This document shows positions 13,741 to 64,000 of a stretch of 64,000 nucleotides of DNA, in pieces. The stretch lies in assembly GCF_002251795.1 (NCBI RefSeq), contig NZ_NOXU01000031.1, positions 496,001 through 560,000 on the forward strand. The letters are read 5' to 3'. Every line of letters starts with the position of its first letter. Within the stretch, counting starts at the first letter, position 1. This DNA is from Niveispirillum lacus. Its GTDB lineage: Bacteria; Pseudomonadota; Alphaproteobacteria; Azospirillales; Azospirillaceae. The notes beneath the pieces are model-generated. The model ran no database searches. It was not told where the DNA came from and saw nothing but the letters and a program-made list of their open reading frames with translations. Made by a program: the position numbers and the translations under genes.

Positions 13741-15006
13741 ATGCGCCGCGTCGTCATCACCGGTATGGGTCTCGTGACTCCGCTCGGGGTCGGGGTGCAA
13801 ACCAACTGGGATCGGCTGATCAAGGGTCAGTCGGGCATTCGCACCATCCAGGGCTTTGATGTTTCCGATCTTCCCTGTCGTATCGCCGGCCAGGTGCCGC
13901 GCGGTGACGGCAGCGACGGCACCCTGAACCTTGATCTCTTCATTCCGCCCAAGGAACAGAAGAAGATGGATGACTTCATCATGTTCGCCATCGCGGCGGC
14001 CGATGAAGCCATCAAGGACAGCGGCTGGAAGCCGTCCAATGACGAGGAATTCGAACGCACGGGCGTTTCTGTCGGCTCCGGTATCGGAGGCCTGCCCGGC
14101 ATTTATGAGACCTCTCTGGTGCTGGCCGAAAAAGGGCCGCGCCGGGTTTCTCCCTTCTTCATCCCATCCTGCCTGATCAATCTGGCGTCGGGCCATATTT
14201 CCATCAACCATGGCTATAAGGGCCCGAACCATGCGGTCGTGACCGCCTGTTCCACGGGTGCCCATTCCATCGGTGACGCTGCGCGCATGATCGCGCTGGA
14301 CGACGCCGATGTGATGGTGGCCGGTGGTGCAGAGGGTGCGTGCTCGCGGCTGGGTATTGCCGGTTTCGCTGCCGCCCGGGCACTGTCCACCAGCTTCAAC
14401 GATACGCCCGAACAGGGCAGCCGCCCTTATGACAAGGCCCGTGACGGTTTTGTCATGGGCGAGGGGGCCGGTGTTGTGGTTCTGGAAGAACTGGAACACG
14501 CCAAGAAGCGTGGGGCCAAGATCTACGCCGAAGTGGTGGGCTATGGTCTGTCGGGCGATGCCTATCACATCACCTCGCCGTCGGAAGATGGCAATGGCGG
14601 CTTCCGGTCCATGCGCATGGCGATGAAGCGCGCCGGTCTCAACCCCGGCGATGTGGATTACATCAACGCGCACGGCACCTCTACGCCGCTGGGTGACCTG
14701 ATCGAGCTGGGGGCTGTGAAGCGTCTGTTCGGCAATGATCTGGCTGGTGCGTCGATGTCGTCGACCAAGTCGGCCATTGGCCACCTGCTGGGTGCGGCGG
14801 GTGCTGTCGAAGCCATCTATTCCGTTCTGTCCATCCGCGATCAGGTGGTTCCGCCAACCCTCAATCTGGACAACCCGGATGATGGGACGGAAGGGGCTGA
14901 TCTGGTGCCGAAGGTGGCGAAGGAGCGCAAGGTCCGCGCCGCCCTGTCCAACAGCTTCGGGTTTGGTGGCACCAACGCGTCGCTGGTGTTCAAGGCGCTG
15001 TCCTGA
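13741..15006 (+). CDS. fabF: 3-oxoacyl-ACP synthase II
   Basis: The 421-residue condensing enzyme starts at ATG 13741, which gives the usual MRRVVITGMGLVTPLG. An upstream in-frame extension to 13669 crosses the hairpin region and is rejected. The catalytic triad is visible: cysteine in VVTACSTGAHSIGD, histidine in NAHGTSTPLGD, histidine in SAIGHLLGAAGAVEA. It elongates acyl-ACP by two carbons, including the C16 to C18 unsaturated step. Confidence 0.97.
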   Translation: MRRVVITGMGLVTPLGVGVQTNWDRLIKGQSGIRTIQGFDVSDLPCRIAGQVPRGDGSDGTLNLDLFIPPKEQKKMDDFIMFAIAAADEAIKDSGWKPSNDEEFERTGVSVGSGIGGLPGIYETSLVLAEKGPRRVSPFFIPSCLINLASGHISINHGYKGPNHAVVTACSTGAHSIGDAARMIALDDADVMVAGGAEGACSRLGIAGFAAARALSTSFNDTPEQGSRPYDKARDGFVMGEGAGVVVLEELEHAKKRGAKIYAEVVGYGLSGDAYHITSPSEDGNGGFRSMRMAMKRAGLNPGDVDYINAHGTSTPLGDLIELGAVKRLFGNDLAGASMSSTKSAIGHLLGAAGAVEAIYSVLSIRDQVVPPTLNLDNPDDGTEGADLVPKVAKERKVRAALSNSFGFGGTNASLVFKALS

Positions 15007-51846: not shown

Positions 51847-53136
51847 ATGACCGACAAGACCCCGTCCGCCTTGGGATTTGAAACCAGGGCGATCCATGCC
51901 GGTGCTGCCCCCGATCCGGCCACCGGCGCGCGCGCCACCCCCATCTATCAGACCAGTTCCTTCGTCTTTGATGATGCGGAGGATGCGGCGGCCCTTTTCA
52001 ACCTGCAGAAAGCCGGCTTCATCTATTCCCGACTGACCAACCCGACCGTGTCGGTTCTGGAAGGACGCATCGCTGATCTGGAAGGCGGGGCCGGGGCAAC
52101 GTGCACCGCGTCGGGTCATGCGGCCCAGATGATGGCGTTGTTCCCCCTCCTGTCGCCTGGCGATGATTTTGTCGCCTCGCGCAAACTGTATGGCGGATCG
52201 CTGAACCAGTTCGCCAACAGCTTCCCGCGCGCCTTCGGTTGGAAATGCAACTTTGTCGCCGGTGATAACGCCGATGATTTCCGCCGCGCCATCACGGCGC
52301 GCACCAAGGCCATCTTCATCGAAAGCTTGGCCAATCCCGGCGGTATTGTCAGCGATATCGCGGCCATTGCGGCCGTCGCGGAGGAGGCGGGCATCCCCCT
52401 CATTGTCGATAATACCCTGGCCACGCCGTATCTCTGCCGGCCCATCGAACATGGTGCGACCCTGGTTGTGCATTCCACAACCAAGTTCCTGACCGGTAAT
52501 GGCACGTCGGTCGGTGGTGTGGTGGTGGATAGCGGCACATTCGACTGGTCGCGTGGCGGAAAGTTCCCGGCCCTGACAGAGCCGGAGCCGGGTTATCATG
52601 GCATGCGGTTTTTTGAGACCTTCGGGCCGGCGGCCTTTACCGTCCATGGCCATGCCATCGGTCTGCGCGATCTGGGGCCGTCCATGGCGCCGCTGAATGC
52701 CTTCATGGGCATCCTGGGCACCGAAACCCTGGCCTTGCGCATGGAGCGTCACTGCGCCAATGCGCTGAAGGTGGCAGAATATCTGTCGGCCCATCCGGCG
52801 GTGGCCTGGGTCAATTATGCCGGCCTGCCCGACAGCCCCTACCGCGCCCTGGCCGAACGCTATCTGCCCAACGGTGCCGGTGCCGTCTTCACCTTTGGCC
52901 TGAAAGGCGGCTACCAAGCGGGGGTGAAGCTGGTGGAGAGCGTCAAGCTGTTCAGCCATCTGGCCAATATCGGCGATACACGGTCGTTGATCATCCATCC
53001 GTCCAGCACCACACACCGGCAATTGTCGCCGGAGGCACAGGTACTAGCAGGTGCCGGGCCTGATGTGATCCGCCTGTCGGTGGGCCTGGAGAGCGTTGCC
53101 GATATCATTGCCGATCTGGAACAGGCGCTGGGCTGA
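51847..53136 (+). CDS. metY: O-acetylhomoserine sulfhydrylase (aminocarboxypropyltransferase)
   Basis: The 429-residue PLP enzyme makes homocysteine from O-acetylhomoserine and sulfide. Features: ARATPIYQTSSFVFDDAEDA, YSRLTNPTVSVLEGRI, SGHAAQMMALFPLL, and the PLP lysine in VVHSTTKFLTGNGTSVGG. The length and the FDDAEDAAALF block fit MetY better than MetZ or cystathionine enzymes. AGGAAGAGA precedes the start. It ends just before the catabolic island and is probably unrelated to it. Confidence 0.93.
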   Translation: MTDKTPSALGFETRAIHAGAAPDPATGARATPIYQTSSFVFDDAEDAAALFNLQKAGFIYSRLTNPTVSVLEGRIADLEGGAGATCTASGHAAQMMALFPLLSPGDDFVASRKLYGGSLNQFANSFPRAFGWKCNFVAGDNADDFRRAITARTKAIFIESLANPGGIVSDIAAIAAVAEEAGIPLIVDNTLATPYLCRPIEHGATLVVHSTTKFLTGNGTSVGGVVVDSGTFDWSRGGKFPALTEPEPGYHGMRFFETFGPAAFTVHGHAIGLRDLGPSMAPLNAFMGILGTETLALRMERHCANALKVAEYLSAHPAVAWVNYAGLPDSPYRALAERYLPNGAGAVFTFGLKGGYQAGVKLVESVKLFSHLANIGDTRSLIIHPSSTTHRQLSPEAQVLAGAGPDVIRLSVGLESVADIIADLEQALG

Positions 53137-53154
53137 TCGCCTGCGTAGCCGTCC

Positions 53155-53197
53155 TGCCGAAGGGGGTTATCGCCTGAACCGATAGGTCCCTTCGGCA
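53155..53197 (+). terminator. Long hairpin after metY, overlapping a predicted operator
   Basis: TGCCGAAGGG (53155-53164) and CCCTTCGGCA (53188-53197) form a perfect 10-bp stem. Inside it ATCG and CGAT (53169-53172, 53180-53183) can form a second stem. No T run follows, so termination is uncertain. The same bases contain the operator-like module described next, and the two readings compete. Confidence 0.45.
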
Positions 53198-53205
53198 ATA
53201 CCGAC
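53169..53205 (+). promoter_or_regulatory. Nod-box-like LysR operator upstream of the FAH-family gene
   Basis: Module 1 is ATCGCCTGAACCGAT (53169-53183), of the form ATCG-N7-CGAT. After 7 bases module 2 is TTCGGCAATACCGAC (53191-53205), itself a TCGG/CCGA dyad. The pair lies 64 bases before the FAH-family start. The same two-module layout with a 7-base gap is found at the three other promoters of the island. Confidence 0.55.
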
Positions 53206-53268
53206 TTTAGCGAGGGCCCTTCCCATGTCTATCTGGCCGCAACCAACGGCCACATGGATGGGATGGAC

Positions 53269-54240
53269 ATGAAACTCGCCACTCTTGACCTTGGGGGCCG
53301 CGATGGGCGGCTGGCCCTGGTGTCGCGGGACTTGGCCCGCGCGGTGCTGACCACAGGCATCGCGGACACGATGCAGCAGGCGCTGGATGAGTGGGCAACG
53401 CTGGCGCCGGCACTGTCGGCATTGTCCGATGCGTTGAATGCCGGCACCGCCGCCGACAGCTTCCCGTTTGAGGCGAGCAAGGCCTTGGCGCCTCTGCCAC
53501 GCGCGTGGCAATGGCTGGACGGGTCGGCCTTCCATGCCCATGGCGAACTGATGGCCAAGGTATTTGGCATCAGCAACCCGCAACATGACCAACCCCTGAT
53601 GTATCAGGGCATGTCCCACCGCTTCATTGCACCTGCTTCCCCGGTGCCTTTTCCGACCGAAGCCGATGGCATTGATTTCGAGGGCGAATTCGCGGTGGTC
53701 ACCGGTGATGTGCCGTTGGGCATTGATGCAGGGGCGGCGCGTGATCATATCCGGCTGGTCCTGCTGATCAATGACTGGTCTCTGCGGGTGACGGGCCGGG
53801 CGGAAATGGCCACCGGTTTCGGCTGGGTGCAGGCCAAACCCGCCTGTTCGGCCGCCCCCGTCGCGGTGACCGTGGACGAGTTGGGGGATGCCTGGGCCGA
53901 TGGCCGTATCCATCTGAACCTGCTGGTCGATTGGAACGGGAAGCGCTTCGGGGCGGCCCATGGCGGGGCCATGGGTTTCTGCTTTGGGCAGTTGATCGCC
54001 CATGCTGCCCGCACGCGCGACCTTTGTGCCGGGACCATCATCGGGTCGGGCACTGTTTCCAACCCCGATTACCGCGAGGTCGGGTCCAGTTGCATCGCTG
54101 AACGCCGCGGTATCGAGATCCTGGATGATGGGGCGGCTCGCACCGGTTTCCTGCAATTTGGTGATCGCGTGCGGATGGAGGCCCTGAAGGACGGCCAAAG
54201 CGTGTTTGGCGCTATTGATCAGCAGGTCGTGAAAGCCTGA
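53269..54240 (+). CDS. Fumarylacetoacetate hydrolase family protein
   Basis: The 323-residue protein starts at ATG 53269. The C-terminal FAH domain (about 80-315) has IDFEGEFAVVTGDVPLGI with metal-binding glutamates, LLINDWSLR with aspartate, and the final GSGTVSNPDYREVGSSCIAE, RVRMEALKDG. Family members cleave C-C bonds of beta-diketo acids or hydrate 2-oxo acids, typically late in aromatic catabolism. The N-terminus (MKLATLDLGG) resembles that of fumarylacetoacetase-like hydrolases. It is separated by 193 bases from the monooxygenase operon, and each unit has a predicted LysR operator. Confidence 0.9.
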   Translation: MKLATLDLGGRDGRLALVSRDLARAVLTTGIADTMQQALDEWATLAPALSALSDALNAGTAADSFPFEASKALAPLPRAWQWLDGSAFHAHGELMAKVFGISNPQHDQPLMYQGMSHRFIAPASPVPFPTEADGIDFEGEFAVVTGDVPLGIDAGAARDHIRLVLLINDWSLRVTGRAEMATGFGWVQAKPACSAAPVAVTVDELGDAWADGRIHLNLLVDWNGKRFGAAHGGAMGFCFGQLIAHAARTRDLCAGTIIGSGTVSNPDYREVGSSCIAERRGIEILDDGAARTGFLQFGDRVRMEALKDGQSVFGAIDQQVVKA

Positions 54241-54249
54241 CCCAGAGAT

Positions 54250-54286
54250 ATCGCCAGGACCGATGCTTTGTATCGGCATAAACGGC
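54250..54286 (+). promoter_or_regulatory. Nod-box-like LysR operator upstream of the monooxygenase operon
   Basis: Module 1 is ATCGCCAGGACCGAT (54250-54264); after 7 bases module 2 is ATCGGCATAAACGGC (54272-54286). The first differs from the module at 53169 at only two positions. The site lies 148-184 bases before the monooxygenase GTG and ten bases after the preceding stop. No strong -10 follows, as expected for an activator-dependent promoter. Confidence 0.6.
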
Positions 54287-54433
54287 TTTGGTGATTTGTT
54301 CGGTCGGCTTATGGTTTTTGGCATGGAGGTCCGCGACGGCGGCCACCTCCCAACCCATCGACGATAACGACCCGCCGTCACCGGCGGGCAATCCGGCTGT
54401 GATCCCTGTGGATGCATGGCCTGGGAGGAGCAT

Positions 54434-55555
54434 GTGTCCTTGATCCGGTCAGCCCTTGTTGTTGGCGGCGGTATCGCCGGCATGTCGGCCACCTTGGTGC
54501 TTTCGCGTCTGGGCGTGGCGGTCGATGTTATCGACCAGGACCCGGCTTGGCGCGTTTATGGCGCCGGCATTTCCATCACCGGCCCGACCCTGCGGGCATT
54601 TCACCGGCTGGGCATCCTGGACGATTTCCGCCAGCACGGTTACTGCGCGGATAGCACCCGGCTGTTCACGCCCAGCGGACACCCGATCGGGGAGGTGGCG
54701 ATCCCGCCGCTGGCGGCGGACCTGCCATCGGGCGGCGGTATCATGCGCCCGGTGCTTCATGAAATTCTGGCCAGCCGCACCCGCGCGGCGGCCGCCGATA
54801 TCCGTCTGGGTGTCACCATTGAAACATACGCCGAGGATGCGGACAGCGCGGAGGTGACCTTCAGCGATGGGCGCACCGGCCGGTATGATCTGGTGATCGG
54901 TGCCGATGGTATTTATTCCCGCACCCGGTCGCTGCTGTTTCCCGATGCGCCCAAGCCGCGCTTCACCGGTCAGGCCTGCTGGCGCACCACGGCGCCCCGG
55001 CCGGAGGCGGTGAAGGGTGTGGAGATGTTCCTGGGCGCCCCCATCAAGGCCGGCGTGAACCCTTGTTCGCCCAACCAGATGTATCTGTTTGCGCTGGAAG
55101 CCATTGCTCCCGACACCCGGCATGCCGAGGCCGATCTGCCCGGCTTGCTACGGGAACGTCTGGCGGGGTTCGGCGGGTCGATCGGCTTTGTCCGTGATCA
55201 GATCACGGACCAGTCGGTGGTGAATTTCCGCCCGCTGGAGGCGCTGTTGTTGCCCGGTCCCTGGCACACGCGCCGCGCCTTGCTGATCGGTGATGCGGCG
55301 CACGCCACGACCCCGCATCTGGCGTCGGGTGCCGGCATGGCGATGGAGGACGCGGTCGTCCTGGGCGATGTGCTGGCGACTGCCGACAGCCTGGGCGCCA
55401 CCTTTAATGCCTTTATGGCCCGTCGCTATGACCGCGCTGCCATGGTGGTGAACAATTCCGTCCGGCTGGGCGAGATCGAGCTGAGCGGTGTGCACAGTGA
55501 CGAACATCCCCGCCTGATGAATCAGACCATGGCCGCGCTGGCTCAACCACTTTGA
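54434..55555 (+). CDS. FAD-dependent aromatic monooxygenase
   Basis: The 373-residue class A flavoprotein hydroxylase should add one hydroxyl to an aromatic ring with NAD(P)H and O2. Dinucleotide motif: ALVVGGGIAGMSATLVLSRLG; DG motif: YDLVIGADGIYSRTR; GD motif: RALLIGDAAHATTPHLASGAG. GTG 54434 is chosen, with GGGAGGAG five bases upstream; a start 18 bases earlier would put the ribosome binding site inside the gene. It leads an operon with a VOC dioxygenase (20 bases away), so hydroxylation would come before ring cleavage. FdeE of the naringenin pathway belongs to the same enzyme type. Confidence 0.92.
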   Translation: MSLIRSALVVGGGIAGMSATLVLSRLGVAVDVIDQDPAWRVYGAGISITGPTLRAFHRLGILDDFRQHGYCADSTRLFTPSGHPIGEVAIPPLAADLPSGGGIMRPVLHEILASRTRAAAADIRLGVTIETYAEDADSAEVTFSDGRTGRYDLVIGADGIYSRTRSLLFPDAPKPRFTGQACWRTTAPRPEAVKGVEMFLGAPIKAGVNPCSPNQMYLFALEAIAPDTRHAEADLPGLLRERLAGFGGSIGFVRDQITDQSVVNFRPLEALLLPGPWHTRRALLIGDAAHATTPHLASGAGMAMEDAVVLGDVLATADSLGATFNAFMARRYDRAAMVVNNSVRLGEIELSGVHSDEHPRLMNQTMAALAQPL

Positions 55556-55575
55556 TCGTTAGGGAGTGACCTGAA

Positions 55576-56478
55576 ATGACCCGTGTGACCGATATCCGCT
55601 ATGTCGGCTATGGCGTGACGGATCTGGATGCCGAGCGCGCCTTCTACCGAGACAAATGGGGCCTGCGCGAGGTCGCGGCCAAAGATGGCATGGTCTATTT
55701 CGCGGCTGAGGGGTCGCCAGAACTCTATGTGGTCCGCCTGCGTCAGGCGGATGTGCAGCGCGTGGACGTCATCGCCTTCGCCGCCGACAGCAATGCCGAT
55801 GTCGATGCGCTGCATGACAAGGTGGTGGCCGCCGGTTGCCGGGTGATTTTTGCGCCGACCGCCCTTTCATCCTTTGGCGGTGGGTATGGTTTCCGCTTCT
55901 TTGGCAAGGATGGCCTGACCTTTGAAATCTCCGCCGGCATCGAACGCGGGCCAGCGCGGCCGGTGCTTGCCAAGGAAGCGCTGCCCGAAAAGATCAGCCA
56001 CGTTGTCATGCATTCGCCCGATCACAAGGGCACGGTGGACTTCTTTGTGAATGTCCTGGGCTTCCGCGTGTCGGACTGGTTGGGCGACTTCATGTGTTTC
56101 CTGCGCTGTAATGAGTGGCACCACCGGGTCGCCATCCTGCCAGGCCCGCCCTGTCTGAACCATGTCGCCTATGACATGCCCGACATGGACGCGATGATGC
56201 GCGGTGTGGGTAAGCTGAAGAAAGCGGAGATCGAGCTGCGTTGGGGCCCCGGTCGGCATACGGCGGGCAACAACACTTTCAGCTATTTCACCACGCCGGC
56301 GGGGTTTGCCGTGGAATATACGGCGGAGTTGGAACGGGTGGATGAAGCGACCTGGGTCGCCGGCGTACACAAGCCCAGCCCTGACGTCATGGATCAATGG
56401 GGGGCCGGGAGCGGCGGGCCGCAGACCATGCCGCATCCCGCGCCCGATCCTGGCCTGTTTCAGGCAGTGGGGGTCTGA
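55576..56478 (+). CDS. Two-domain VOC (extradiol-type) dioxygenase
   Basis: The 300-residue protein has two VOC modules (residues 5-115 and 138-255). The second holds a plausible iron site: histidine in ISHVVMHSPDHKG, histidine in CLNHVAYDMPDMD, glutamate in GFAVEYTAELE. This is the type I extradiol dioxygenase pattern (2-His-1-carboxylate) for meta-cleavage of catechol-like rings. GGGAGTGA precedes the start. Its place directly after an aromatic hydroxylase and before a C-C hydrolase supports ring cleavage. Confidence 0.88.
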   Translation: MTRVTDIRYVGYGVTDLDAERAFYRDKWGLREVAAKDGMVYFAAEGSPELYVVRLRQADVQRVDVIAFAADSNADVDALHDKVVAAGCRVIFAPTALSSFGGGYGFRFFGKDGLTFEISAGIERGPARPVLAKEALPEKISHVVMHSPDHKGTVDFFVNVLGFRVSDWLGDFMCFLRCNEWHHRVAILPGPPCLNHVAYDMPDMDAMMRGVGKLKKAEIELRWGPGRHTAGNNTFSYFTTPAGFAVEYTAELERVDEATWVAGVHKPSPDVMDQWGAGSGGPQTMPHPAPDPGLFQAVGV

Positions 56479-56481
56479 ACC

Positions 56482-57645
56482 ATGGCGCTTTTTCAGTATT
56501 TTCCCAATAATTACATCTGGAACCTCTCGGTCAACATCGCCATCGAAAGCGGTGCGCGGGTTGGCGAGATCGAGGATATGTGCCGCCCCTTGATTGAGGC
56601 GGCGGCGCGCGGTGAAGATGCGGGTACCGGTGCCTTTCTGGCGCAATGGGTTGCGATGGCGGATAAGCTGGTGGGGCTGGCAGCCGAGGATGAGGCACGG
56701 GGTCGTGCCTTTTCTGCCGGGACCAAGCTGCAACGCGCCTCGCTTTATTACATCACCGCGGAACGGATGCAGGGCCATGGCCATCCCGGTCGGGCGGAGA
56801 CCTTTGCTAAGGGCCAAGATGCGTTCCGCCGGGGCACCGCGCTGTCACGGGAGAACTGCACCCGTGTTGAAATTCCGTTCGGCAACAGCTTCATTCCCGG
56901 CCTGTTCACCAAGGCCGAGGGGGTGGACGGTCCCGCCCCTTGTGTCCTCTATGTGAACGGCCTGGATAGCTGCAAGGAGTTGCTATTCTGGTCATGGCTC
57001 CCCCATGCCCTGGCCAAGCGGGGTATCTCCACCCTGTGCATCGACCAGCCCGGTACGGGTGAGGCGCTGCGCGCCAACAATCTCTATGTCACGCATGAAA
57101 CCGAACGCTGGGCGACCCCTGTGTTTGATTATCTGGCGGCCCGGCCCGATGTGATTGCCGACAGGATTGGCATGGTCGGCATCTCACTGGGCGGCTATTT
57201 CACCCCACGCGCAGTGGCGTTTGAGCCGCGCTTTGCCAGCGGTGCCGTCTGGGGTGCCAATCATGATTGGCGTGAGGTCCAGCAAAAGCGCCTGAAGCGG
57301 GAAGGGGAGAACCCCGTTCCGCATTATTGGGGCCATGTGCGCTGGGTGTTCGGTGCCAAGGACATGGACGATTTCTTTGCCAAGGCCGAAGGCATGCATT
57401 TGAACGGTGTGCTCGACCGGATCAAGGTGCCGTTCCTGGTCACCCATGGGGCGAAGGATCGCCAGATCTCTGTCGATTACGCCCACCAGACTTATGACCA
57501 GTTGGTCAACTCCCCCAAGCGCGAGCTGAAAATCTTCACCGACCGCGAGGGCGGGGTGGAACATGTGGGCGCCGATAACATGTCGTTTGGCCGCGACTAT
57601 ATCGCCGACTGGTTTGCCGACACGCTGGGCGGACACACGGCGTGA
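56482..57645 (+). CDS. Alpha/beta hydrolase related to C-C bond hydrolases (DHPON hydrolase type)
   Basis: The 387-residue protein has a helical N-terminal cap (1-130) and an alpha/beta hydrolase core: PCVLYVNGLDSCKELLFW (oxyanion strand), IDQPGTGEALR, nucleophile GMVGISLGGYFTPRAVAF, LVTHGAKDRQIS (acid) and EHVGADN (histidine). The cap plus core layout resembles 2,6-dihydroxypseudooxynicotine hydrolase and FrsA-like proteins, which cleave C-C bonds. It follows the dioxygenase by three bases and overlaps the ferredoxin by four, so it probably acts on the ring-cleavage product. Confidence 0.87.
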   Translation: MALFQYFPNNYIWNLSVNIAIESGARVGEIEDMCRPLIEAAARGEDAGTGAFLAQWVAMADKLVGLAAEDEARGRAFSAGTKLQRASLYYITAERMQGHGHPGRAETFAKGQDAFRRGTALSRENCTRVEIPFGNSFIPGLFTKAEGVDGPAPCVLYVNGLDSCKELLFWSWLPHALAKRGISTLCIDQPGTGEALRANNLYVTHETERWATPVFDYLAARPDVIADRIGMVGISLGGYFTPRAVAFEPRFASGAVWGANHDWREVQQKRLKREGENPVPHYWGHVRWVFGAKDMDDFFAKAEGMHLNGVLDRIKVPFLVTHGAKDRQISVDYAHQTYDQLVNSPKRELKIFTDREGGVEHVGADNMSFGRDYIADWFADTLGGHTA

Positions 57646-57935
57646 GGGTGATACTGCACCGATTGGACGGGGAGGGGACGGTTGACGTTCCGCCCGGTCA
57701 GTCCTTGTTCCAAGCCATCGCCGCTCAGGACCGTGCAATGATCACGGCTCTGTGCGGCGGTTGCTGTATTTGTGGGACCTGCCGTGTGCGGGTTCTGGAC
57801 GGCGATCCTGGCCCGATGGGGCCGGATGAGGCGCATCTGCGCTGGCAGCTTGCCATCACTGACCCTGCCATTCGTCTTGCCTGCCAGATGCGGCCCGGTT
57901 GCAGGCTGCGCGTTGACATCATCCAGCCGGAGTAA
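57642..57935 (+). CDS. [2Fe-2S] plant-type ferredoxin
   Basis: The 97-residue protein binds a [2Fe-2S] cluster through C38-x5-C44-x2-C47 (CGGCCICGTC) and C81 (RLACQM). Extra cysteines at 41, 42 and 87 are unusual. Starts at GTG 57642 (GTGA overlap with the hydrolase). In extradiol pathways such ferredoxins reactivate oxidised Fe(III) dioxygenase (XylT type), and that role fits here since no Rieske oxygenase is encoded in the island. Confidence 0.9.
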   Translation: MRVILHRLDGEGTVDVPPGQSLFQAIAAQDRAMITALCGGCCICGTCRVRVLDGDPGPMGPDEAHLRWQLAITDPAIRLACQMRPGCRLRVDIIQPE

Positions 57936-57940
57936 GCGAC

Positions 57941-58714
57941 ATGCCGCGGATCATTGACTTGTCGGTGCATCTGGAAAATGACGTGCCCGCCGACCCGCCC
58001 TTCATGCGGCCCAAGATCCGTTATGCCAGCCATGCCGAGGGGGCAGCGGAATATTGCCAGATGTTCCCTGGTCTGAAGGCCGAGCAGTTGCCCGATGGGG
58101 AAGGACCGGCGGCGGAATGGGTGGAGATCTCCACCCATAATGGCACGCACATGGACGCGCCGTGGCATTATCATTCCACGATGGATGGCGGCAAACGTGC
58201 CATCACCATTGACGAGGTACCGCTGGATTGGTGTTTCCGCCCGGGTGTGAAGCTTGATTTCCGCCACCTGCCCGATGGTCACGTGGTGACAGCAGCGGAG
58301 GTGGAGGCCGAACTGACCCGCATCGGCCATGTGCTGCAACCGCTTGATATCGTGCTGGTCAACACAGCAGCCGGTGCTGCTTATGGTACACCGCATTTCC
58401 TGGCCAAGGGGTGTGGCATGGGGCGCGAGGCGACCTTGTTTCTGGTGGAACGCGGTGTGCGGGTGACCGGCATTGACGGCTGGAGTTGGGATGCGCCATT
58501 TCCGTTCACGGCCGCCAAGTTCAAGGAAACGGGTGACGCCTCCCTGATTTGGGAAGGGCACTATGTCGGCAAGGATGTCGGCTATTGCCATATGGAAAAG
58601 CTGACCAATCTGGACACGTTGCCAGCCACCGGGTTCACGGTGGCCTGTTTCCCGGTCAAGGTGCGGGCCGCCTCGGCTGGCTGGACCCGCGCCGTGGCGA
58701 TCCTTCAGGATTGA
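57941..58714 (+). CDS. Cyclase-family (kynurenine-formamidase-like) metal hydrolase
   Basis: The 257-residue protein has the cyclase family motif HNGTHMDAPWHYH (metal-binding histidines and aspartate), preceded by IIDLSVHLENDVPADPP, and GIDGWSWDAPF later. Members hydrolyse amides, esters or enol lactones, and some act in aromatic catabolism. GGAG lies upstream. It ends the plus-strand operon, its last ten bases overlapping the 3' end of the convergent dehydrogenase gene. Confidence 0.9.
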   Translation: MPRIIDLSVHLENDVPADPPFMRPKIRYASHAEGAAEYCQMFPGLKAEQLPDGEGPAAEWVEISTHNGTHMDAPWHYHSTMDGGKRAITIDEVPLDWCFRPGVKLDFRHLPDGHVVTAAEVEAELTRIGHVLQPLDIVLVNTAAGAAYGTPHFLAKGCGMGREATLFLVERGVRVTGIDGWSWDAPFPFTAAKFKETGDASLIWEGHYVGKDVGYCHMEKLTNLDTLPATGFTVACFPVKVRAASAGWTRAVAILQD

Positions 58715-59622
58715 CTCAGCGAGCGGTCGATCAGCCTGTCGACGGTCCCATCATCGCGGAACCCCGCTGCAAGGGCTGTGTCGGCCCGCAGCGGCGGCTG
58801 GCGGCCAAACCGCGCCTCCACTGACGGGTCGGGCGTGTAGGTCACATCGACAGGGCCGAAGCGACGGGCCAGGGCCGCTACCAGTTCCCCAATGGTCAAA
58901 CGCAGGACCGGGGGCAACCAGACGCGGCCCTGTCCGGGCAGGCCGGATGCATGCACCAGCGCATCCACGGCGGCCGCCACCGACATCCACCAGCAGACAG
59001 CATCCGGTCCGACCGGCAGCGTAACAGGACGTCGCTCCGCCGCTGCCCACATCAGCTCGCTCATGAAGGCCGAGATCAGGCCGGACGGTGCCGGGGGGCG
59101 GGCCACGATTCCGGGCAGGCGCAGGCTGCATCCGTCGACAAGGCCGCGCCGGCTGTAATCGGCCACCATAACCTCTGCTGCCAGTTTCTGCGCACCGTAG
59201 GACAGGGTGGGATTGGGCGGGGTCACATCATCAACCGTATCGGGCAGCGGGGCGCCATAGATGGCGACGCTGCTGGCAAAGACAAACTTTGCCCGGTGGT
59301 TGTGCTGTCGCAGCGCGTCCAGCAGGCCAATGGTCCCCTGCAGGTTCACCGCCATACCGAGATCGAACTCCCGCTCTGCCAACCCACCCGGCACGCTGGC
59401 GAGGTGAAACACGGTATGCGGGGGGAGGGCCATGGCCCTGGCCCACAGGGTGCTGTCCGCAATGCTGCCTGTGACGGGACATAGGCGGGGATCCTTGGGT
59501 AAGTCCCCAAACTGCTGATCCACCAGCGTCAGACGGCTGACGGCCGTCTCGGTCCCGGACAGCAGATGACGGACAAGTGCGCGACCGACAAAACCGTCGG
59601 CACCGGTGATCAGGATATGCAT
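58705..59622 (-). CDS. NAD-dependent epimerase/dehydratase (D-erythronate dehydrogenase-like)
   Basis: The 305-residue extended SDR has the NAD motif ITGADGFVGRALVRHL, HLASVPGG, a catalytic serine in FASSVAIYG, and the YxxxK motif as YGAQKLAAE. The later AVCWWMSVAAAVDAL resembles the DenD (D-erythronate dehydrogenase) group. Role in this pathway unknown; it may oxidise a sugar acid or a reduced side chain. It lies 19 bases after the SDR and is convergent with the cyclase gene. Confidence 0.85.
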   Translation of the reverse strand: MHILITGADGFVGRALVRHLLSGTETAVSRLTLVDQQFGDLPKDPRLCPVTGSIADSTLWARAMALPPHTVFHLASVPGGLAEREFDLGMAVNLQGTIGLLDALRQHNHRAKFVFASSVAIYGAPLPDTVDDVTPPNPTLSYGAQKLAAEVMVADYSRRGLVDGCSLRLPGIVARPPAPSGLISAFMSELMWAAAERRPVTLPVGPDAVCWWMSVAAAVDALVHASGLPGQGRVWLPPVLRLTIGELVAALARRFGPVDVTYTPDPSVEARFGRQPPLRADTALAAGFRDDGTVDRLIDRSLSQS

Positions 59623-59641
59623 GGTGGTTCCATTGTCTTGT

Positions 59642-60427
59642 TCAGTTGCCGTCAGTGATCAGCGTGCCGCCATCGACAACGATATTCTGTCCCGTGATGA
59701 AGGCCCCTGCGGCGCTTGCCAGCATCACGGCCACGCCCGCAACCTCTGCCGGCTCGCCCGGTCGGCGCAGCGGCGTCATGGCCATGCGCCGTTGCATGAA
59801 GTCCGGATTGTCCAGCAGGTCACGCGAGAGATCGGTGCGGATGAATCCGGGAGAGATGGCGTTGACCCGGATGTTGGAAGGTCCCCATTCGACGGCCAGG
59901 TTGCGCGCCAACTGCGCGTTGGCGGCCTTGGACAGACCATAAAGGCCCAGCGCCCTGTTGCCGCGCAGCCCGGCGATGGAGGACATGATCATCATGCTGC
60001 CACCACCTGTCCCCGCCATGCCCGGCAGCACCATGCCCGCCAGCCAGAGCACACTTTGCAGGTTGATGGTCATGGTTGCCTGCCAGTCGGCGTCGCTGGC
60101 CGTTGTGATGGCCCCCGCATGCGGCGCCACGCCGGCGTTGCAGACCAGAATGTCCAGCGGCCCGGCCGCCATGACCCGTTCGACCATTGCGGACAGTGCC
60201 GCACGGTCTGCGACGTCGCAGGCTATGGCATGGACATTCAACCCCTGCACCCGTAGCGCTTCTGCCGCAGCCGTGCAGTCCCTTGCGTCCTCGCAGCATA
60301 TCCAAACCTCTGCGCCGTGACAGGCCAGAGCGGTGGCAATGGCCCGTCCCAGCCCGCGCTGTCCGCCGGTGACCAGGGCACGGCGACCGGACAGGTCGAA
60401 CAGGCGGCCATAAGCGGTCGCATCCAT
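59642..60427 (-). CDS. Short-chain dehydrogenase/reductase
   Basis: The 261-residue classical SDR starts at ATG 60427 (AAGGAAAG upstream); a reading back to 60517 would cross the operator region. Cofactor motif: LVTGGQRGLGRAIATALA; NAG: VCNAGVAPHAG; catalytic serine in IMSSIAGLRG and YGLSKAA. The sequence ITGQNIVVDGGTLITDG ends it. It probably oxidises or reduces an intermediate. It is divergent from the LysR gene, with a dyad in between. Confidence 0.9.
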   Translation of the reverse strand: MDATAYGRLFDLSGRRALVTGGQRGLGRAIATALACHGAEVWICCEDARDCTAAAEALRVQGLNVHAIACDVADRAALSAMVERVMAAGPLDILVCNAGVAPHAGAITTASDADWQATMTINLQSVLWLAGMVLPGMAGTGGGSMMIMSSIAGLRGNRALGLYGLSKAANAQLARNLAVEWGPSNIRVNAISPGFIRTDLSRDLLDNPDFMQRRMAMTPLRRPGEPAEVAGVAVMLASAAGAFITGQNIVVDGGTLITDGN

Positions 60428-60487
60428 GGGCTTTCCTTGGCGGGGAGGTAGTGGAGCCACGATAGGGGCTGTACCTCCATCACCGAA

Positions 60488-60524
60488 GTCGTATTTAATG
60501 AACCAAACTATCGGCATGACCGAT
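60488..60524 (-). promoter_or_regulatory. Nod-box-like LysR operator between SDR and lysR genes
   Basis: The perfect dyad ATCGGCATGACCGAT (60510-60524) is followed, on the minus strand and after 7 bases, by TTCATTAAATACGAC (60502-60488). On the plus strand AACCAAACTATCGGC (60501-60515) overlaps it. That is close to the ATCCAAACAATCGAT core of rhizobial nod boxes. It sits in the 114-base divergent gap, 17 bases before the lysR ATG and 60 bases before the SDR start. Confidence 0.65.
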
Positions 60525-60541
60525 GGATGGGAGGATGATCA

Positions 60542-61456
60542 ATGCGGTTCCAGAAACTGGACCTGAATCTGCTGGTGGTTCTGGATGTGCTGCTGGAAGA
60601 ACGCAGCGTGTCGCGCGCGGCCAACCGCCTGAACCTGAGCCAGTCCGCCGTCAGCGGCAACCTGGCCCGTCTACGTGAATTTTTCGACGATGACATCCTG
60701 GCCCAGATCGGTCGGTCGATGGTGCCGACACCGCTGGCTGACAGCCTGGCCGAACCGGTGCGCGATATCCTCATGCAGATACAGGCCACCATCGAAACCA
60801 AACCCAGTTTCGATCCCGCCAGTGCCACACGCACGATCCGCTTGCATGCGTCCGACTATGTGACCGAGGTGCTGCTGGCCCGCGTGATTCGGGAGGCACG
60901 CCGTCTGGCGCCCGGTATCAAGGTTGAAATCGACGGTATGGATGATCTGGTGCTGGAACGGCTGTCGCGGGGGCAGGTGGACTTTCTGGTGACGCCGGAT
61001 ACCTTCACCCATCCGGACCATCCCAAGGAAAAACTGTTCACCGACACCCATGTTGTTGTCGCTTGGGATGGCAACAGTAAGGTTGGGGAGACAATCAGTT
61101 TCGATGAATATATGGCGATGGGCCATGTCCTGGTCCGGTTCGGGATGAAGCGGGCGCCCAGCTTTGATCAATGGTTCCTGGATCGTTTTGGCTATACCCG
61201 CAATGCCGAACTGTTTGTGGCCGATTTCACCACCGTGCCGAATATGGTGATTGGCACCGATCTTCTGGCCACCATGCATGAAAGACTGGCGCGGCTTTAT
61301 GTGCAGCGTCTTCCCCTGCGTATTCTGCCGCTGCCCATTGAATTTCCCGTGCTGACAGAGATGGTGCAGTGGCATCGCCATTTTCAGCGCGACCCGGCCC
61401 TGGTCTGGTTCCGCAACCTGATGCGCCGCTGTGCCGCCGAACAGGATGCCGACTGA
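60542..61456 (+). CDS. LysR-family regulator of the NodD/FdeR type
   Basis: The 304-residue protein has the N-terminal winged helix (residues 1-65, RFQKLDLNLLVVLDVLLEER and LNLSQSAVSGNLARLR). Its start, GRSMVPTPLADSLAEPVR, the HPKEKLF block, YMAMGHVLVRFG, PSFDQWFLDRFG and LTEMVQWH closely parallel the NodD family as I remember it, not generic LysR proteins. NodD and FdeR respond to flavonoids. It is divergent from the SDR gene and followed by the TonB receptor. Predicted activator of the island; the signal molecule is inferred. Confidence 0.88.
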   Translation: MRFQKLDLNLLVVLDVLLEERSVSRAANRLNLSQSAVSGNLARLREFFDDDILAQIGRSMVPTPLADSLAEPVRDILMQIQATIETKPSFDPASATRTIRLHASDYVTEVLLARVIREARRLAPGIKVEIDGMDDLVLERLSRGQVDFLVTPDTFTHPDHPKEKLFTDTHVVVAWDGNSKVGETISFDEYMAMGHVLVRFGMKRAPSFDQWFLDRFGYTRNAELFVADFTTVPNMVIGTDLLATMHERLARLYVQRLPLRILPLPIEFPVLTEMVQWHRHFQRDPALVWFRNLMRRCAAEQDAD

Positions 61457-61459
61457 ACC

Positions 61460-61496
61460 ATTAGCGAGACTGATAGGTCGGATCGGAAAATACGAT
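61460..61496. promoter_or_regulatory. Nod-box-like LysR operator downstream of lysR
   Basis: ATTAGCGAGACTGAT (61460-61474, of the form ATT-N9-GAT) and ATCGGAAAATACGAT (61482-61496, ATCG-N7-CGAT) are 7 bases apart. They begin three bases after the lysR stop and about 270 bases before the receptor start. Confidence 0.5.
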
Positions 61497-61632
61497 TTCG
61501 GCGATGTATTCGTCGCTGATATTGTTCTCTCACCAAAAAACATCAGACCGGCCAAAAGGCTGGCGGTTGGGGAGGATGCCGCATTGGCGGTCGTTGGCGC
61601 CACGGTTTGCGCCTTCATCACATATGGCTGAC

Positions 61633-61653
61633 AGGGTCCGCTGTACGGACCCT
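61633..61653 (+). terminator. Hairpin between lysR and the TonB receptor
   Basis: AGGGTCCG (61633-61640) pairs perfectly with CGGACCCT (61646-61653) around CTGTA and is followed by TTTGTAT. It is a plausible terminator for lysR or an attenuator in the leader of the receptor mRNA. Confidence 0.6.
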
Positions 61654-61765
61654 TTGTATCCCCGCACCCGCCTGCCTGTTGCTGCTGTGTCCAAATCCGG
61701 CGCCACGTCCGGAGTTGCCCGAACCGTGCCCAGGTGCCGGGTGATGAACCATGGAGGAAGCCAGA

Positions 61766-64000
61766 ATGCGTACCCCCCTGCTTTTGTCCACCGCGATACT
61801 TACGGCTGTTGCCGCCGTCCCGGTTCAGGCTCAATCCCCAGACACGGCTACGCTGGAAGAGATTGTTGTGACCGCGCAGCGCCGGTCGGAAAATCTGCAA
61901 AAGGTGGCGGTGGCGGTTTCTGCCGTCTCCGCTGATGATCTGGTGACGGCTGGTGTCACCGATACGGCAGGCCTGACCAAGCTGGTGCCAGCGCTGGTGG
62001 TGCAGCCGGGTGGCGGTTCCAATACCGGCTTCTATCTGCGCGGTGTCGGCACGCTGGGCCCTAATTCCTTTTCCGAAAATGCCATCGCCTTCAATTATGG
62101 CGGCGTTTACATCGGCCGTCCCACGGCGCCGGTAGGTACATTCTTCGATCTCCAGCGAGTGGAGGTGCTGAAGGGTCCGCAGGGCACATTATACGGCCGC
62201 AACGCCACCGGTGGTGCTGTCAATGTCATCCCCAATCGCCCCGATGCCAGTGGTACTGCCGGCGAGGCGGGGCTGGAGATTGGCAATTACAACCTGCGCA
62301 AGGCTACAGGCATGTTCAATGCGCCGGTCAGCGACACGCTGAGCCTGCGTGTGGCCGGGCAGGTGGTGGATCGTGATGGTTACATGTCCGACGGCTATGA
62401 TGACGAGGAAGGCCAGGCTGCCCGCGCCTCATTGCTCTGGGAGCCCGATGACCGGTTGAGCCTGCTGTTATCGGGTGATTATTTCCATCAAGGCGGCAAG
62501 GGCACGGGCGGCGTTCTGGTGCCGGGTACCCTGACCCCGACGGCGCCGGCGGTGAAGGATCGGATTGGCGGATCAGAGGCCGTCAGCATTGCTGAACTGC
62601 GTACCCGTTTCCCGGCACTGATCAATTCCGGCCTTGTTGTCCCGCCCAGAAATGACGGCTTCAATGACAGCACCTTCTGGGGCGTGACCGCGACACTGGA
62701 TTACCAGTTTGACGCTGGCACCCTGACCGTGCTGCCCGCCTATCGCGACAGCCGTCCGGACTTTGTATTCTACAGTGTGGGCTTCCAGGGTACGATCCAG
62801 GAAGTGTCGAAGCAGAGCTCTGTCGAGGTCCGCTTTGCGTCGGCCGAGGATAACCCGTTCCGTTATGTCGTCGGCGGCTTCTGGTTCCGCGACGAGGTGA
62901 ATGCCTTCAACAATTTCTTCCAGGGCGGCCTGTCGACCACGACGTTCCGGCCAAACCAGGAAACGGTCAGCAAAGCGGTTTTCGGCCAGGGCACCTACGA
63001 TCTGGCCCCGGCCTTGCGCCTGGTGGCCGGTGTCCGCTACACGCATGAAAACAAGCAGCAGACGACACCTGTGCGCCAGAGCAGTGCTGCCAATCCCAAT
63101 CCGGCGTTCCTGATTGCCACCGGCGACGAGGATTTCAGCAGCGTAACGTGGAAGGGCGGCATTGAGTTTGATGCCGGTCCGCAATCCCTGCTCTATGCCA
63201 ATGTCGCCACAGGTTTCAAGGCCGGTGGCTTCTATCCAGCGGTCGTCAAGAACAGCTTCGATCCCGAGGAACTGACAGCCTATACGATCGGATCGAAGAA
63301 CCGCTTCCTGGATAACCGGTTGCAACTGAATGCCGAGGCGTTCTGGTGGGACTATAAGGACCAGCAGATCGGCTATATCGGCCCGGTCGAAGTCCGGCCG
63401 GGCGTCTATGGCCAGGCAGCGGTGACGGCCAATGTCGGTCAGGCCCGCATGTACGGCATGGAGGTTGAGGCGCAGTTCCTGGCCACCCGGAATGATGAAT
63501 TCGGCATCAACCTTCAATATATGGACACCAAGTATAAGAGCTTTGTCTACACCGCCATCTCGGCGGGCGGCGCGCCCTTGCCCAGCGGCTGCCGGGTTAC
63601 GCCCAACAGTTCCCTGCCCGTGGCGGCGCCCGCCCGGTTGTTCACGGTCGATTGCTCCGGCAAGTCGGCGGTGAATGCGCCGAAATGGTCGCTGAACCTC
63701 AGCTACAGCCACACATTTGAACTGTCGGCCGATCTGGATCTGGTTCTGGGCGCACGCAGCCGCATCGAAAGCGGACGCTTCCTGTCCATTGACTACCGGC
63801 CAGAGCAGTATCAAGACGGTTACATGACGGCGGATGCCTGGCTGACCCTGGAAGCACCGGGCCAGGGCTGGTCAGTGACGGGTTATGTCAATAACCTGAC
63901 GGATGAGGATGTCTATTCCACGTCCATCACACGGCCCATCCTGAATGTTGTCTATAACGGCCTGCGCCCGCCCCGTACCTACGGGCTGCGCGGATCGGTC
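61766..64000 (+). CDS. TonB-dependent receptor, 3' end cut by the window
   Basis: 745 codons are present; the final YGLRGSV suggests only a few residues are missing. Residues 1-22 form a signal peptide (LLLSTAILTAVAAVPVQAQ). TonB box: LEEIVVTAQRR (about 30-40). The plug domain (45-160) includes RVEVLKGPQGTLYGRNATGG and the barrel follows with RLVAGVRYTHEN and the C-terminal region near NNLTDEDVYSTSI. It should bring a large or scarce substrate across the outer membrane; the sequence type is common in sphingomonad-like aromatic or plant-polyphenol uptake. ATG 61766 follows GGAGGAAG. Confidence 0.93.
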   Translation, partial: MRTPLLLSTAILTAVAAVPVQAQSPDTATLEEIVVTAQRRSENLQKVAVAVSAVSADDLVTAGVTDTAGLTKLVPALVVQPGGGSNTGFYLRGVGTLGPNSFSENAIAFNYGGVYIGRPTAPVGTFFDLQRVEVLKGPQGTLYGRNATGGAVNVIPNRPDASGTAGEAGLEIGNYNLRKATGMFNAPVSDTLSLRVAGQVVDRDGYMSDGYDDEEGQAARASLLWEPDDRLSLLLSGDYFHQGGKGTGGVLVPGTLTPTAPAVKDRIGGSEAVSIAELRTRFPALINSGLVVPPRNDGFNDSTFWGVTATLDYQFDAGTLTVLPAYRDSRPDFVFYSVGFQGTIQEVSKQSSVEVRFASAEDNPFRYVVGGFWFRDEVNAFNNFFQGGLSTTTFRPNQETVSKAVFGQGTYDLAPALRLVAGVRYTHENKQQTTPVRQSSAANPNPAFLIATGDEDFSSVTWKGGIEFDAGPQSLLYANVATGFKAGGFYPAVVKNSFDPEELTAYTIGSKNRFLDNRLQLNAEAFWWDYKDQQIGYIGPVEVRPGVYGQAAVTANVGQARMYGMEVEAQFLATRNDEFGINLQYMDTKYKSFVYTAISAGGAPLPSGCRVTPNSSLPVAAPARLFTVDCSGKSAVNAPKWSLNLSYSHTFELSADLDLVLGARSRIESGRFLSIDYRPEQYQDGYMTADAWLTLEAPGQGWSVTGYVNNLTDEDVYSTSITRPILNVVYNGLRPPRTYGLRGSV

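Follow-up and report, generated by a model that had tools for sequence, protein, structure and literature searches.

The nod box, the operator of the rhizobial regulator NodD, is described in the parts of the literature consulted here as a 47-bp element built from ATC-N9-GAT modules. The same partial sources describe FdeR, a regulator of naringenin degradation called NodD-like, whose footprint between fdeR and fdeA spans 60 bp, and the isoflavone cluster ifc of Variovorax, in which a FAD monooxygenase is accompanied by an FdeC-like glyoxalase and by an alpha/beta hydrolase resembling 2,6-dihydroxypseudooxynicotine hydrolase. Ring-cleavage clusters under a NodD-like LysR regulator and LysR-type operators were already known. 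Here we analyzed a 64,000-nucleotide stretch of the 4.97-Mb genome of Niveispirillum lacus (contig NZ_NOXU01000031.1, positions 496,001 to 560,000; hereafter the window). It carries a catabolic island that begins with an FAH-family gene at 53254 and ends with a TonB-dependent receptor gene at 61766. We propose, with a probability of about 0.83, that this island is a single regulon in which a NodD-related LysR protein, encoded at 60542-61456, would act on four 47-bp operators named S1 to S4. The locus would be an FdeR-like LysR regulon whose operators are of the nod-box type, and its support is as good as sequence can give. What is new is the full operator set in Niveispirillum, with its genome-wide specificity, and a box-to-promoter register common to distant relatives.

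An earlier note on this DNA had pointed to ATCG-N7-CGAT at 53169, 54250, 60510 and 61482, each with a weaker copy 7 bases away. All four matches stand where it placed them, each in an intergenic gap (53137-53253, 54241-54415, 60428-60541 and 61457-61765), although the window holds seven in total, with three more at 13990, 24291 and 52657, the last one within the upstream pyridoxal-phosphate (PLP) enzyme gene. Shuffling of the window gave an expectation of 1.73, and one of 100 shuffles reached seven or more. The second copies do lie at the 7-base gap, but they are degenerate (TTC-N9-GAC in S1, ATC-N9-GGC in S2, TTC-N9-GAC on the minus strand in S3 and ATT-N9-GAT in S4), and when all sites are read in one direction, S3 on the minus strand, the strong repeat leads in the first three and comes second in S4. 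The two repeats are thus real, but the conserved unit is not a pair of modules: in a single register it spans 47 bp, with two 15-bp inverted repeats whose centres are 22 bp apart, followed by a tail. It contains T-N11-A inverted repeats with the spacing of LysR regulatory and activation sites and, like the nod box, two ATC-N9-GAT-type repeats 7 bp apart over about 47 bp, the weaker module of each site being degenerate. When matrices were built from three sites, the fourth was recovered at 31.0, 34.1, 34.8 and 35.8 bits; the best score elsewhere in the 64 kb was 13.4 bits, for a match overlapping S3.

We then scored the whole genome with a profile, R2, whose training excluded the window's own sites. 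The four operators scored 32.5-43.9 bits and the next site 15.1 bits when the top 150 of 3,670 initial candidates were scored, so that no equally good two-module match was seen at unrelated genes. A 24-site profile gave 36.9-46.3 bits for the four sites and 15.2 bits for the next (best 150 of 3,946 candidates scored). Across 11 Niveispirillum genomes, R2 found 35 sites of at least 26 bits, all in the nine genomes that carry an orthologue of the regulator; G007 has three and each of the other eight has four. G004 and G008, where the best regulator matches, at 36-38% identity, are not orthologues, have no site at this threshold (best 15.6 bits). Nine sites lie in the gap between the regulator gene and a short-chain dehydrogenase (SDR) or epimerase gene, nine before the FAD-dependent monooxygenase (FMO) gene, nine before the TonB receptor gene and eight before the FAH gene. 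The box follows its targets when the gene order changes: in G003 and G009, where we found no SDR gene next to the regulator, it precedes the epimerase gene; in G001, where no FMO gene was found in the island stretch, an FMO gene on another contig bears its own box; and in G002 the boxed TonB receptor gene is about 134 kb away from the regulator. Six of the 35 sites are on stretches outside the training set; three of them, the G001 FMO and G002 TonB receptor sites included, are 4-5 bases away from every training site, and the other three differ by 0-1. Altogether, the uniqueness in the genome, the presence of boxes in nine of nine genomes with the regulator and in neither of the two without it, and the boxes at unlinked targets strongly support the inference of the note that one LysR protein would coordinate four transcription units. 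The modules are also kept in the orthologous islands, except for one degraded FAH site in G007.

A weaker box of 23.1 bits occurs in G005 (L191, contig G005:C210, near position 2049), between a divergent TonB-receptor-like gene and a gene that we take to encode an efflux membrane-fusion protein. Seen in one Niveispirillum genome, it is a possible extra member of the regulon.

The operators stand in a fixed register with their predicted promoters. In 29 Niveispirillum sites (30 found minus one palindromic overlap), the box is followed by a TAT-type -10, TATnGT in most, at a distance of 16 bp in 23 cases and of 17 bp in the remaining six, every one of which is an FAH site. The tail of the operator fits a -35-like hexamer (TTYGGY in most sites) 17 bp upstream of the -10, and the repeat centres would then be at about -65 and -43 from the predicted start. 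Such positions fit the usual regulatory and activation sites of LysR-type regulators and come near those of the OxyR repeats, at -66 and -44. We propose that one dimer of the NodD-related protein would occupy the upstream repeat and a second one the downstream repeat, adjoining the -35, and that the tetramer would take on its activating form in response to an aromatic inducer, which is probably a flavonoid of plant origin or a related polyphenol. The units activated in this way would be the FAH gene, the operon encoding FMO, extradiol dioxygenase (EDO), alpha/beta hydrolase (ABH), ferredoxin and cyclase, the SDR-epimerase unit and the TonB receptor gene. Lying 15 bp 5' of the regulator ATG, S3 may also serve for autoregulation.

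The regulator (P0001) has the HTH_1 and LysR_substrate domains of its family. It is about 43% identical to Sinorhizobium meliloti NodD1 and 44-48% to regulators from Novosphingobium, Massilia, Azospirillum and others, and a locus from a Niveispirillum metagenome-assembled genome (MAG) carries it at 92%. Its best solved relatives, 9iib and 9x6w (146 bits), are records labelled as LysR family only; we take them to be NodD ligand domains because the S. meliloti nodD1 product matches them at 384-387 bits. As in nodD loci, a box stands divergently beside the regulator gene, at 15 bp in the window as compared with 6-9 bp from the nodD start (14 boxes in 17 nodABC loci). Unlike the nod box, the window operators have ATCGG/CCGAT bases and an AATACGA tail, their targets are catabolic, and a TAT -10 lies 16 bp downstream. 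No match to the NodA family was found in the 4.97-Mb genome by a search that gave a match in three of three nodA-bearing genomes and none in 14 control genomes.

The phylogeny separates the window regulator from the rhizobial NodD clade. Our sample of 113 proteins was reduced to 83 at 88% identity and to 81 after dropping L129 and OUT_L025. In the resulting tree the 19 rhizobial rows form one clade (100/100) and the window regulator falls outside it, in a separate clade with its orthologue L036 and with L039 (100/99). The wider family of this clade consists of regulators, catabolic or unassigned, from alpha-, beta- and gammaproteobacteria and from one Acidobacteriota MAG. The best tree nests NodD among non-rhizobial regulators; we nevertheless dropped the claim of an origin of NodD inside the catabolic group, as a tree constrained to unite the 57 non-rhizobial rows is worse by 9.99 log units but is not rejected (p-AU 0.29).

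One would wonder whether these sites are ordinary LysR-type promoters whose likeness to nod boxes reflects the geometry of the family, without special kinship to nodulation. We regard this as a possible though rather doubtful explanation. The operators of OxyR are described, in the source as available, as ATAG-N7-CTAT repeats at -66 and -44, that is to say 15-bp inverted repeats with the same 22-bp distance between centres as in the window, although the half-sites and the regulator differ. The term nod-box-like, used in the earlier note, is supported by the relationship of the regulator to NodD and by the matrix result that follows, within the limit that the two-repeat layout is general to the LysR family. 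We used a matrix built from Niveispirillum sites alone on 96 loci that encode a NodD-like regulator outside the genus, a sample in that 80 of the loci used were the best 80 of 310 relatives. Its best site in the locus was within 200 bp 5' of the regulator gene in 33 of 96 loci, whereas 60 column-permuted matrices averaged 1.9 and never exceeded 7. The matrix finds nod boxes beside nodD in nodABC loci, and 11 of the 33 loci carry nod genes, out of 17 such loci sampled. This is evidence that the nod-box pattern extends beyond nodulation. The reverse test is weaker, because the 23 of 76 loci (67 plus nine of Niveispirillum) obtained with a rhizobial matrix are near the best permuted control of 17 (mean 5.5). 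This matrix ranks the window sites 2, 4, 5 and 11 among about 128,000 positions, the weakest of them being outscored by seven unrelated positions. With either matrix, the best site in seven short loci of about 3.9 kb from outside the clade was also often 5' of the LysR gene, and we therefore made a composition-controlled test. At p≤0.01, the Niveispirillum matrix scored in 26 of 67 non-rhizobial and 14 of 29 rhizobial loci, and the rhizobial matrix in 35 of the 67. Out-of-clade LysR genes score too (see below), and with the reverse test so near its best permuted control, we did not retain the rhizobial match as specific proof of kinship with the nod box.

The register of the -10, which none of the matrices saw, separates in-clade from out-of-clade sites better than the matrix scores do. 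TAnnnT stands at +16 in 19 of 39 distinct non-rhizobial in-clade sites (other offsets: mean 0.11, maximum 1) and in one of 13 out-of-clade sites, a second of these 13 having it at +17; yet it is found in none of 22 rhizobial sites. In the tree, five of the six outgroup LysR rows are set apart from the NodD-like family at 100/99, the sixth, OUT_L024, falling inside it. Boxes (p≤0.01, either matrix) also go with the enzymes, since they occur in 28 of 33 loci with at least two homologues of the island enzymes (FAH, FMO, EDO, ABH or cyclase, at ≥35% identity) versus 13 of 34 others; none of 29 rhizobial loci holds two or more of these homologues. Another regulator, encoded elsewhere, could bind the four sites and the LysR gene be just one of its targets; the island and the regulator are gained or lost together, and binding by the LysR protein is predicted. 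This seems improbable to us, given that the repeat geometry and T-N11-A are LysR features, that a box borders the regulator gene, as it does in nodD loci, and that similar boxes stand 5' of NodD-like regulators in unrelated bacteria. That the repeats are functionless, by chance or by shared descent of duplicated intergenic DNA, is scarcely credible: ATCG-N7-CGAT by itself does recur in the window, but 35 sites have been retained across nine genomes, and the box and -10 are among the best-kept parts of an otherwise diverging TonB-receptor leader.

Several points weigh against the proposed NodD-related regulon and the comparisons that surround it. The boxes and the regulator go together, but this is indistinguishable from the island being present or absent as a whole. 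Of the four operators, that of the FAH gene is the weakest; it has decayed to 11 bits in G007, and in G001 and G002 its tail is missing. In the composition-controlled test, the out-of-clade LysR controls scored in 6 of 25 cases with the Niveispirillum matrix and in 12 of 25 with the rhizobial one, one of the 25 (L024) being the row that fell inside the NodD-like family. Finally, the island EDO shares only about 33% identity, over 128 residues, with its match in a Variovorax locus.

Further observations concern the boxes of related bacteria. In Bradyrhizobium sp. SSBR45G (L074, 7945-7991), a good nod box lies 5' of a regulator that branches as sister to the remaining 18 rhizobial rows of the sample; no match to nodA, nodB or nodC was found in the 16.9 kb of this locus, and a Pfam scan of ten open frames nearby gave no clear target. 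Three loci of Azospirillaceae g2 (L041-L043) have a variant with an 8-bp rather than a 7-bp gap between repeats. In rhizobial loci such as L090, L100 and L107, GGATAG, with TA at +17/18, follows several nod boxes at the place where catabolic relatives have TAnnnT at +16.

The genes of the island are listed in Table 1. The true start of the FMO gene may be the in-frame GTG at 54434, which follows GGAGGA. The last open frame, of 745 residues up to the window edge, is presumably a TonB-dependent receptor, as we recognized from its sequence, and its orthologues are present in seven of eight Niveispirillum islands compared, the eighth genome having one at another place. No RNA family reached its gathering score in 52000-64000.

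Table 1. Operators, predicted promoter elements and genes of the catabolic island (positions in the window; operator scores from profile R2, built without the window sites).
Feature	Position	Strand	Remark
Operator S1, 5' of FAH-family gene	53167..53213	+	32.5 bits
Predicted -10 TATCTG	53230..53235	+	17 bp after S1
FAH-family hydrolase	53254..54240	+	FAA_hydrolase + FAA_hydro_N_2; domain scan
Operator S2, 5' of FMO operon	54248..54294	+	41.0 bits
Predicted -10 TATGGT	54310..54315	+	16 bp after S2
FAD-dependent monooxygenase (FMO)	54416..55555	+	domain scan
Extradiol (VOC) dioxygenase (EDO)	55576..56478	+	two-domain
Alpha/beta hydrolase (ABH)	56482..57645	+	best solved relative 2,6-dihydroxy-pseudo-oxynicotine hydrolase 2jbw
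2Fe-2S ferredoxin	57642..57935	+	domain scan
Cyclase-family protein	57941..58714	+	domain scan
NAD-dependent epimerase/dehydratase	58705..59622	-	gene 2 of minus-strand unit
Short-chain dehydrogenase (SDR)	59642..60427	-	gene 1 of minus-strand unit; domain scan
Predicted -10 TATCGT	60459..60464	-	16 bp after S3
Operator S3, between divergent SDR-epimerase unit and regulator	60480..60526	-	42.0 bits
LysR-type regulator (P0001), NodD-related	60542..61456	+	proposed binder of all four operators
Operator S4, 5' of TonB-dependent receptor	61458..61504	+	43.9 bits
Predicted -10 TATTGT	61520..61525	+	16 bp after S4
Putative TonB-dependent receptor	61766..64000	+	continues past window edge

As in the naringenin locus, a NodD-like regulator stands beside a FAD monooxygenase and an extradiol dioxygenase. 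Compared by published description, partial for both systems, the island resembles the flavonoid-degradation clusters fde and ifc: it shares with fde of Herbaspirillum seropedicae a NodD-like LysR regulator, a FAD monooxygenase and a glyoxalase-type dioxygenase in a polyphenol ring-cleavage cluster, and with ifc a FAD monooxygenase, a glyoxalase and an alpha/beta hydrolase with the same relative. On the other hand, the cupin genes reported for ifc were not seen among the ten window proteins scanned, and the island adds a TonB receptor. Polyphenol degradation is our best guess because the enzyme set is like that of ifc and because FdeR is described as NodD-like. From these enzyme families and likenesses, we lean slightly towards a plant flavonoid or related polyphenol as the substrate.

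Other elements were noticed around the operators. The inverted repeat GCCGAAGGG ... CCCTTCGGC (53156-53196) surrounds the first half of S1 and is possibly a terminator of the upstream PLP-enzyme gene that overlaps the operator. In the leader between S4 and the TonB receptor gene, the hairpin GGGTCCGCTGTACGGACCC (61635-61653), followed by a short T-rich stretch, looks like a terminator and is not kept in every species. Further on, the TCCGG direct repeat ATCCGGCGCCACGTCCGGA (61695-61713) is nearly unchanged in eight of eight aligned sequences while a large part of its surroundings has diverged, and may be another control element. We rejected the idea that this leader encodes a small conserved peptide, because its reading frames are not conserved.

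The regulon bears on the question of how flavonoids became a nodulation signal for rhizobia. A tentative hypothesis, to which we give a little less than even credence, would be that the nod box predates nodulation: it would have been the operator-promoter unit of NodD-like regulators of polyphenol catabolism across Proteobacteria, taken over by rhizobia as a sensor of host signals, with the fixed -10 at +16 lost or shifted in the takeover. The window operators would then be a living example of the older form. A derivation of nod boxes from catabolic operators was not stated in the titles and abstract openings of the literature searched, a body of text from which subscription journals are mostly absent. 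The regulon offers a non-nodulating counterpart to NodD and its nod boxes, with four native operators and one regulator, useful for studying the origin of the nod box. Its 47-bp profile is searchable and predicts whole regulons, unlinked targets included. The regulator itself is a candidate polyphenol sensor whose operator, in this genome, was found only within its own regulon.

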